The notes beneath the pieces are model-generated. The model was not told where the DNA came from. It searched no databases and was given only the letters and a program-made list of their open reading frames with translations. Of a DNA stretch of 35,338 nucleotides, positions 6,352 through 35,338 are shown piece by piece. The first letter of the stretch is position 1. The number at the start of each line of letters is the position of its first letter. The stretch is from Candidatus Methylomirabilota bacterium (GTDB lineage: Bacteria; Methylomirabilota; Methylomirabilia; Rokubacteriales; CSP1-6). The stretch covers positions 1 through 35,338 of the forward strand of contig DASYUQ010000130.1 in the NCBI GenBank assembly GCA_036001065.1, in the 5' to 3' direction. The translations under genes were made by a program, and so were the position numbers.

Positions 6352-7242
6352 ATGCGCGTGTTGCTGGCGACGGATGGCTCGAAGGGTGCGCTGACGGCGA
6401 CGGAATGGCTGAGAGAATTCCCGCTTCCCCCGGATACGACGCTCGCGATCCTGACAGTGGCCACGCTCCCATCACCGCCCATCGTCCCCGAGACCCTCAG
6501 GGATCTGAGAGACGCGGTGCTGGCCGACGCCCGCCGCATCGGCGATGAGGCGTTGAAGCTCGTCGTACCGCGGTGGCCAAAGGCCGAGATTCGTGTGAGC
6601 GAGGGTGACCCGCGAGAGGAGATCGTCAGGATTGCGGAGGAATGGGGAGCGGACCTGGTCGTCGTCGGCGCGCGTGGGCTTGGAGCCGTGAAGGGCTTTT
6701 TGCTCGGAAGCGTGTCCCTGGCGGTCGTGCGACATGCGCCGTGCTCGGTGCTGGTCGTCAAGGGCGAGCCACGACGGCCTCGGGCCGTGGTCCTCGCCCT
6801 GGACGGCTCCGAGAATTCCATGCAGGCGCTGGAGTTCCTGGCGTCCCTGGACCCGGGGAAGTCGCTGGGCGTGCGCCTTCTCGGCGTAGTGGAGAAAGTC
6901 CGGTTCCCCTCCTCGGCCCCGGGGCGCCTGCGCGCGTCTCTGCGGGCCGCGCTGGCGGAGATGGAGCAGGAGCGCCGGAGCGAGCTCGAAGCGCTCCTGG
7001 GCCGTGCCAAGGCGGCGCTCGAGACGGGCGTGGGGACTGTGGAGGCATCCGTGGTCGCAGGCCCGGCGGCCGAGGAGATCATCAGGGTCGCAAACTCGGA
7101 CGGCGGCGATCTCGTCGTCGTCGGAGCCCGGGGGTTGGGCGCGGTCAAGCGTCTGCTGCTCGGAAGTGTCTCCGAGCGGGTACTGCGCGACGCGCGGTGG
7201 CCGGTGCTGATCGTCAGGCGACCACGCGAGGGCGCAGTATGA
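6352..7242 (+). CDS. tandem-domain universal stress protein
   Basis: This 296-residue protein has two Usp domains (about residues 1-140 and 143-292). Each carries an intact ATP-binding loop: V-G-A-R-G-L-G-A-V-K-x3-L-L-G-S-V. The near identity of the two loops points to internal duplication. E-type tandem Usps bind ATP and promote dormancy or hypoxic survival in other bacteria. GGGAGGG at 6341-6347 sets the ATG start. It is driven by sigma-54 promoter P2, and its stop overlaps the next usp start (ATGA). Confidence 0.95.
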   Translation: MRVLLATDGSKGALTATEWLREFPLPPDTTLAILTVATLPSPPIVPETLRDLRDAVLADARRIGDEALKLVVPRWPKAEIRVSEGDPREEIVRIAEEWGADLVVVGARGLGAVKGFLLGSVSLAVVRHAPCSVLVVKGEPRRPRAVVLALDGSENSMQALEFLASLDPGKSLGVRLLGVVEKVRFPSSAPGRLRASLRAALAEMEQERRSELEALLGRAKAALETGVGTVEASVVAGPAAEEIIRVANSDGGDLVVVGARGLGAVKRLLLGSVSERVLRDARWPVLIVRRPREGAV

Positions 7243-7796
7243 CGACGCCGTTCGCCGTTAGCCGGATCCTGTTCCCGACGGATTTCTCCGACGCCTCGCG
7301 CCTGGCCGGCCAGACGGCCGTCGCTCTGGCCCGGCACTTCGGCGCTCGCCTCATCGTTCTCCACGTCATCCCTCCGGTCACGGACCCGGAGCAGCGTCGC
7401 GCCGCGCTGCGTTCCACGACCGCGGAACTGTCGTCGGATGTCTCCGTGGAGGCCGCGACCGTCACGGGCATCCCGGCCAGACAGATCGTGGCATATGCGG
7501 GGCGCCACGAGATCGACCTGATCGTCATGGGCACGCACGGCCGCACCGGGGTCTCCCACGCGCTGCTCGGGAGCGTGGCCGAGGCCGTGCTGCGCCGGGC
7601 CCCCTGCCGGGTCCTCACGGTGCCAGCCCTGCTCGCCCAGCGCCAGCCTTCGACCGCCACCCACGAGGAGGCGGTGGCGAGGTGCATCGTGTGCGCGTCC
7701 CCGTCGGCTGATCTGATCTGCGAAACCTGCCGCGCCCGCATTCGCGGCGAGGCGCTCGAGCACAAGCAGCGGGAGGAGCGGGCGGGTCGTCACTAA
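7239..7796 (+). CDS. universal stress protein with C-terminal four-cysteine (zinc-ribbon-like) tail
   Basis: The 185-residue product has a Usp domain (about 1-137) with an intact ATP loop M-G-T-H-G-R-T-G-V-S-H-A-L-L-G-S-V. A tail of about 45 residues follows, holding C-I-V-C and C-E-T-C eleven residues apart, then a charged helix. The tail looks like a small zinc-binding treble-clef or ribbon and is not part of the normal Usp fold. Metal or redox sensing, or binding to RNA or protein, is possible but inferred. The ATG at 7239 overlaps the previous stop by 4 bp. Confidence 0.92.
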   Translation: MTTPFAVSRILFPTDFSDASRLAGQTAVALARHFGARLIVLHVIPPVTDPEQRRAALRSTTAELSSDVSVEAATVTGIPARQIVAYAGRHEIDLIVMGTHGRTGVSHALLGSVAEAVLRRAPCRVLTVPALLAQRQPSTATHEEAVARCIVCASPSADLICETCRARIRGEALEHKQREERAGRH

Positions 7797-34213: not shown

Positions 34214-34273
34214 GGCCGGCGGGTTCGCTCTTCGGCGCGGGTAGAGTATGCTGCCGGTCGGGGAGGGGCTCCT

Positions 34274-35131
34274 ATGCGTTCTCGTCTGACGCTGTTCGTG
34301 GTCGCCACGCTGGTGGGCGGGTTATTGGGCTATGCCTGGAACTGGCCCGTGTTCAGCGGCATGTACAAGGGGTTCATCGCGCTCTTCACCGATCCGGGGG
34401 CGCCCCTGGCCGGCGCCGCGACGGCCGTGCTGCTCGCCTTCGTCATGGGGGTGCCGCGCATCTGCGTCCCCTGATGGACGCCGATGATCTTCACGATCGC
34501 GCCCCTGGTTCAGGAGGCGAAGACGAGACGGCGATGGATGGCGGTGCTCGGTCTGTTCACGGGCGCCCTGCTGGTGGTGCTGGGCGTGTTCGGCGCGGCG
34601 ATGGCCTGGGCGGGCTCCGCCGTGGCCGCGCAGGTGACGACCCCCTGGGCGCGCGAGGCAATCGCCTCCGTCGCCCTCTCGGTGCTGGGCCTGCTGGCGC
34701 TGGCGATCGCGCTCGGCGAGCTGGGGCTGACGCGCCCGCTGCTCCCTCGTCTGACCGCAGCTCCGGGGGGAGCCGCCCCCACCGGCAGCCTGACGCGGCG
34801 GGCGCTGACGATCGCGCTCGCGTTCGGCGCGACGATGGCGATCTTCAGCCCGCTGTCGGCCTACGCGCTCGTCATCGGCTGGGTGGCGGCGCAGCAGAGC
34901 GCCTGGCTCGGCGCCCTCACGCTGATGGCTTACGGCCTCGGGCTCATGGTGCCGCTGGCGGTGGCGGGCACGCTCGCCGCAGGGCGCGCCGGACGGGCCG
35001 GCGCCGACGCCCTGGCCCTCCAGCGGCGCGTGAGCGTCGTCAGCGGGGTGAGCCTGGCGCTGGCCGGCGGCTTCCTGCTCTCGATGTGGACGCTGCGCGC
35101 GACGTGGGCGCTGTTCCTGCCGGCCGCCTGA
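34274..35131 (+). CDS. CcdA/DsbD-like membrane protein with in-frame TGA at a C-x-x-C position (selenoprotein candidate)
   Basis: One reading frame of 285 residues is interrupted only by TGA at 34472-34474. Upstream, 66 residues contain two hydrophobic segments and end G-V-P-R-I-C-V-P. Downstream, W-T-P-M-I-F-T-I-A-P-L-V continues without a frame change, with four more membrane segments and the CcdA-type fourth-helix pattern (S-P-L-S-A-Y-A-L ... L-M-A-Y-G-L-G-L-M-V-P-L). TGA falls where the second cysteine of C-V-P-C would be, giving C64-x-x-U67. GGGGAGGGG sets the ATG. Membrane thiol:disulfide exchange is inferred. If TGA is not recoded, this is a broken gene: ATG 34484 would restart in frame but without a ribosome site. 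Confidence 0.7.
34500..34519 (+). promoter_or_regulatory. possible bacterial SECIS hairpin
   Basis: CGCC-CCTG (34500-34507) pairs with CAGG-A-GGCG (34511-34519, bulged A at 34515) around a GTT loop. The loop begins with G and lies 33 nt after the TGA, inside the range I recall for bacterial SECIS elements. The pairing is good, but GC-rich DNA forms such stems by chance, so this is only a candidate. Confidence 0.35.
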
Positions 35132-35138
35132 CCGTCCC

Positions 35139-35338
35139 GTGAAGTTCGGCGTCCAGCTCCCGCACTTCGGCCCGCTCGCCTCCGGCGAGGGCACGCTCGC
35201 GCTGGCCCGCCGCGCGGAAGCGCTGGGCTACGACTCCGTGTGGGTGGGCGACCACATCGTCTATCCCCCGCCGCTCGCCGAGCGCTTCGGCGGGGAGTTC
35301 TACGAGGCGGTGACGACGCTCAGCTTCGTGGCGGCGCA
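35139..35338 (+). CDS. luciferase-like (LLM) F420-type oxidoreductase, N-terminal part (cut by window end)
   Basis: The first 66 residues start K-F-G-V-Q-L-P-H-F-G-P. They continue A-R-R-A-E-A-L-G-Y-D-S-V-W-V-G-D-H-I-V and T-T-L-S-F-V-A-A, the standard opening of the bacterial luciferase/F420-dependent TIM-barrel family. GTG start 7 bp after the preceding stop. The rest lies outside the window, so cofactor and substrate cannot be assigned. Confidence 0.9.
   Translation, partial: MKFGVQLPHFGPLASGEGTLALARRAEALGYDSVWVGDHIVYPPPLAERFGGEFYEAVTTLSFVAA

Follow-up and report, generated by a model that had tools for sequence, protein, structure and literature searches.

A probable selenocysteine form of a CcdA/DsbD-type membrane protein in Rokubacteria, with peroxiredoxin-like and TlpA-like neighbours in relatives

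Canonical CcdA and DsbD proteins connect cytoplasmic thioredoxin with the periplasm: electrons pass via one Cys in transmembrane helix 1 (TM1) and one Cys in TM4. Most known selenoproteins are soluble enzymes of the thioredoxin fold, and selenocysteine (Sec, U) resists irreversible over-oxidation, which fits peroxide defence. The Rokubacteria, to which the gene described below belongs, are uncultured bacteria of soil and groundwater. With the electrons of cytoplasmic thioredoxin, CcdA and DsbD keep periplasmic thioredoxin-fold proteins reduced (PMC4460558).

A 2026 review (PMC13188914) lists 119 selenoprotein families, in which CcdA/DsbD_TM is represented solely by the fusion TsoB (NCBIfam NF045694, rhodanese/DsbD fusion-like), the only listed family that names a DsbD-like part. 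The DsbD-like region of TsoB is weakly matched by remote Cys homologues of the present protein (E 2e-7 to 2e-6). Compared by model and description, TsoB is a fusion of 572 positions that contains two Sec (UxxxxU), whereas the present protein has 285 residues, a single proposed Sec and a CxxU motif; it does not match the TsoB model (cut-off 805 bits; the best E, 1.6, comes from one of the six members). The same review contains a putative mercuric transport selenoprotein (PF02411, C/SxxU), which shares its small size, membrane location and C-x-x-U motif with the present protein but belongs to a different Pfam family, and a Pfam search found no PF02411 match in the latter protein. Peroxiredoxin (Prx; TxxU) and TlpA/ResA-like selenoproteins are known types and are neighbours, not homologues, of the gene in relatives of the window's genome. 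In the literature searched, we found neither their pairing with a Sec membrane conduit nor a selenoprotein CcdA, and no NCBIfam family is named for the present protein. An earlier sequence-only reading knew of no established Sec form of this membrane family; this holds for the 119-entry table and for NCBIfam, except that the TsoB fusion is listed with a DsbD-like part. The review also reports that 63 selenoprotein genes were predicted in one Methylomirabilota assembly, and the family described here may be among them.

The window, i.e. the whole stretch of DNA analysed here (35,338 nt), is one contig (C130) of a 239-contig assembly (genome G000). Towards its end lies a frame (Table 1) that starts with ATG and has a single internal stop, the TGA of codon 67. 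The sequence-only reading had described this frame as open but for that TGA, which is correct, with a terminal TGA besides. Ordinary gene callers cut the gene short at the UGA. We estimate a probability of about 95% that the encoded protein is a selenoprotein. The conserved UGA, the Cys homologues, a synonymous freeze downstream of the UGA and the selenocysteine machinery of relatives all support the earlier suggestion of a candidate new selenoprotein.

Table 1. Features of the predicted selenoprotein gene, in coordinates of the window
Feature	Position	Strand	Remarks
Predicted Sec-containing CcdA/DsbD_TM-like membrane protein gene	34274..35131	+	285 aa; TGA stop at 35129-35131
Ribosome-binding-site-like GGAGG	34262..34266	+	7 nt upstream of ATG; read directly from the sequence
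In-frame TGA, proposed Sec67	34472..34474	+	same alignment column as the invariant active-site Cys in TM1 of CcdA/DsbD
Codon of Cys64 (added Cys of the proposed C-V-P-U motif)	34463..34465	+	invariant in six genomes, absent from Cys homologues
Codon of Ser192	34847..34849	+	by alignment, place of the TM4 active-site Cys (GCPNP) of Cys homologues; invariant in six
Putative bacterial SECIS hairpin CGCC-CCUG-GUU-CAGG-A-GGCG	34500..34519	+	GUU loop; 33 nt after UGA
Frozen codons 71-82	34484..34519	+	zero synonymous changes in six genomes; one nonsynonymous change, at codon 76

We compared the protein with known families and with its closest Cys-containing relatives. Residues 51-244 match the Pfam domain DsbD_TM (PF02683) with E=1e-7 and a score of 31.9 bits (cut-off 27.1), a match that spans the TGA and bears out the proposed CcdA/DsbD homology on both sides of it; all six members match this model (best E 9.4e-9). 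A search of 388 genomes for Cys orthologues yielded no close one and only three remote homologues, one from another phylum (L103) and two from the same class (L104 and L105), all without stops and 27-29% identical. Around the site the alignment is ungapped, with GVSNIFLPCTLPLVFVIVPL and GLSMIVLPCTLPAVFVIVPL in remote homologues against GVPRICVPUWTPMIFTIAPL in the window's protein. In this alignment, Pro66 and Pro70 show no variation and neither does the U67/Cys column, i.e. the P-C-x-x-P of TM1 in CcdA/DsbD_TM is present as P-U-x-x-P in the identical column. The CcdA (SPCVLP) and DsbD (MPCVLP) paralogues in these genomes align likewise, with PC at the first site. An hhalign comparison with ccdA gave no confident match, and the site was aligned by means of the Pfam profile, with L103-L105 as intermediate homologues. 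By the alignment with remote homologues and paralogues, U67 occupies the place of the canonical TM1 redox Cys, and Cys is indeed what the homologues carry at the TGA site.

The other active-site residues differ from those of canonical proteins. The TM4 redox Cys of the homologues (GCPNP) is replaced by Ser192 in all six Sec forms, so the protein is classed as a variant and not as a canonical CcdA. The column of Cys64 contains Phe or Val in the remote homologues, and Cys64 is specific to the Sec forms. The C-x-x-U arrangement noticed in the sequence-only reading is therefore retained, but U67 should not be read as the optional second Cys in a newly formed CxxC motif: it corresponds to the invariant TM1 Cys, and C64 is the added residue. 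There is also an additional N-terminal segment of ∼45 residues. Judged from these alignments, what appears to be new here is the combination of Sec for the canonical TM1 Cys, Ser for the TM4 Cys and an added Cys that creates a C-x-x-U within one helix region.

The top Foldseek match of an AF2 model (pLDDT 70) is the CcdA structure 5VKV, a weak match with a probability of 0.98, a non-significant E value of 0.11 and TM scores of 0.41-0.49. The model was built from 14 alignment rows, including the remote homologues and paralogues, and serves as supporting evidence only because one of its ccdA rows (L064:1479-2217) is out of frame; the six close sequences alone gave a pLDDT of 40. Taken as a whole, the protein is very probably of the CcdA/DsbD_TM type, in a Sec form.

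The gene was found in six of the 95 genomes of the phylum, which belong to one Rokubacteria family and four genera, and protein identity to the window's copy is 72-93% across these six species genomes. The copies come from separate assemblies of six species, and each contains exactly one internal stop, a TGA at the identical codon; named Rokubacteria contigs concur on the TGA at codon 67. Values of dN/dS are mostly 0.16-0.5 for codons 1-66 (0.79 in one exceptional pair, G006/G027) and 0.12-0.34 from codon 83 to the end, which indicates purifying selection 3' of the TGA as well as 5'. Outside the phylum, a scan of 84,980 species genomes with exact 8-residue patterns, which diverged forms would escape, returned Rokubacteria only, and a search of plasmids found no relatives of the gene.

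A pseudogene, nonsense mutation, sequencing error or assembly artefact, for which one could invoke the fragmented source assembly and the fact that an in-frame TGA is a stop by default, is scarcely credible and was rejected because the TGA is kept in six conserved copies from six species, with no other stop in any of them and purifying selection on either side. It is also highly unlikely that the locus encodes two proteins, namely an N-terminal peptide of 66 residues that stops at the TGA and a protein of 215 residues translated from the ATG at 34484. An ORF does begin at this ATG, but no ribosome-binding site is seen upstream of it, the proposed break would split the P-U-x-x-P motif, which all Cys homologues have unbroken, and the DsbD_TM match crosses this break. 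Two proteins would also leave the retention of the TGA codon in all six genomes unexplained.

We then considered how the UGA may be decoded. The stem-loop that the sequence-only reading placed downstream of the TGA, with a G-first loop, does fold (CGCCCCUGGUUCAGGAGGCG; -10.7 kcal/mol, z=-2.5). It agrees in every respect with the published bSECIS model (a loop of 3-9 nt with G in the first two positions, a spacing of 16-37 nt and an energy of <= -7.5 kcal/mol; PMC13188914). The window is GC-rich, and 123 of 200 random TGAs within it satisfy the same rules, so the hairpin alone is weak evidence. An Rfam search gave no match of use, and covariation cannot be counted since the hairpin pairs are invariant.

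What decides the matter is a signal in the nucleotides, the synonymous freeze, which strengthens the SECIS prediction. In codons 72-82, all 10 informative (amino-acid-invariant degenerate) codons are identical in the six genomes, against 22% in the rest of the gene. The chance of such a freeze is ∼3e-7, an optimistic figure because the block was picked after the alignment had been viewed; a run-length shuffle, in which 9 of 100,000 trials attained such a run, is fairer. In the control, canonical ccdA from these six genomes, 29.5% of such codons are unchanged and the longest run is 3. A TGA common to six genomes, followed by this freeze, puts the finding far beyond chance.

Genes for selenocysteine synthesis and insertion are present in related genomes. 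Both selA and selB score above curated cut-offs in all 11 relatives tested, and tRNA-Sec (selC) adjoins selA-selB in each of the four loci examined (ARAGORN). The window's own genome contains no selA, selB or selC above cut-off. One of its contigs (C80; 7,824 bases) is 91% identical to, and collinear with, the sel contig of a relative (G001) as far as base 7686 and stops short of where selC would lie, so the absence of these three genes is apparently an assembly gap. The genome does contain selD (L097:1501-2445, on contig C202), which has an in-frame TGA at its CAGU motif, the catalytic site. The check on sel genes that the sequence-only reading proposed thus turned out positive for selA, selB and selC in relatives and for selD in the window's genome, and negative for selA, selB and selC in the latter. 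The ∼100 nt between selA and selB in the relative G001 (L056:8253-8355, contig C80) have >40 matches across the window's genome at 78-93% identity and resemble a dispersed REP-like repeat.

If the UGA were read as Trp or some other selenium-free residue, the frozen downstream stretch could be a readthrough signal instead of a SECIS element. We regard such readthrough as very unlikely: the homologues have Cys, not Trp, in this column, Sec machinery and a Sec-type SelD occur in these genomes, and two conserved neighbours also have TGA at catalytic Cys positions. Furthermore, the gene itself terminates with TGA, which means that TGA is not generally reassigned. Selenocysteine insertion thus remains the preferred reading, in which the UGA would be decoded by SelB and tRNA-Sec with the help of the downstream hairpin, as suggested by its conservation, the machinery and the synonymous freeze.

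The genes next to the predicted selenoprotein gene provide information on its possible function. In four relatives, it is convergent with, and not co-transcribed with, two genes, of which one is peroxiredoxin-like (AhpC-TSA; motif TxxU, but APU in one relative) and the other TlpA/ResA-like (ATW-U-P-x-C). Both have a signal-like N-terminus and carry an in-frame TGA where the catalytic residue is encoded. The Prx (TxxU) and TlpA-like (UxxC) genes are mutually adjacent (loci L106-L110; e.g. L109:5846-6397 and 6394-6927). In a fifth relative (G012, L108), a Prx part with TGA is followed by TlpA remnants, and the pair appears to be fused or degraded. These neighbours are not visible in the window's genome because the contig ends 207 nt past the gene.

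Because the TM4 Cys is missing, the protein cannot use the two-helix mechanism of canonical proteins unchanged, and the substrate could differ. The main alternative among selenoprotein functions is that the C-x-x-U binds or moves a metal or metalloid and that the protein is not an electron conduit. The lost TM4 Cys would fit such a role, as would the precedent of the membrane selenoprotein listed as a putative mercuric transport protein. However, PF02683 membership argues against it, as does the finding that in all five relatives the gene converges on Prx and TlpA-like genes, which are of thiol-redox type; the few identified neighbours include no gene recognised as one for metal resistance. 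We consider a metal or metalloid role unlikely, and the protein is probably a transmembrane electron conduit.

For such an electron conduit, we propose the following mechanism: (i) C64 and U67, placed by alignment, would form a C-x-x-U selenenylsulfide pair within one helix region that replaces the TM1/TM4 pair; (ii) the conduit would take electrons from cytoplasmic thioredoxin via C64/U67; (iii) the acceptor of these electrons would be the exported TlpA-like protein (UxxC) encoded nearby; and (iv) this protein would re-reduce the exported peroxiredoxin (TxxU), giving a periplasmic Sec-to-Sec relay for peroxide detoxification. Whether the conduit serves this specific Prx/TlpA relay is an even call. 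The same balance of confidence attaches to a new family of Sec transmembrane conduits. In such a family, a C-x-x-U selenenylsulfide confined to one helix region may have taken over as redox centre from the two-helix Cys/Cys pair, and it would feed a periplasmic chain that is selenium-only, from Sec-conduit to Sec-TlpA to Sec-peroxiredoxin. The position of the gene beside two other probable selenoprotein genes in relatives suggests a selenium-based wire that destroys peroxides outside the membrane.

If this proposal is true, Sec at a membrane-embedded CcdA/DsbD-type active site would be both a new place and a new role for selenium, namely in transmembrane electron transfer, and the replacement of the TM1/TM4 Cys pair by a one-helix C-x-x-U would become testable. 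It would also link the export of reductant across the membrane to selenium-dependent peroxide defence in the periplasm of uncultured soil bacteria.

Other genes were seen near the predicted selenoprotein gene. In three relatives, a UshA/SoxB-like 5'-nucleotidase gene lies between it and the Prx and TlpA-like genes (L050:6649-8274; also L049 and L052), and the 5'-nucleotidase beside the gene weakly matches a UshA-like (seleno)protein model (NF041198). In the window, positions 35139-35338 hold the start (GTG) of a further frame, by eye that of a luciferase-like F420-dependent oxidoreductase, which is cut by the contig end.
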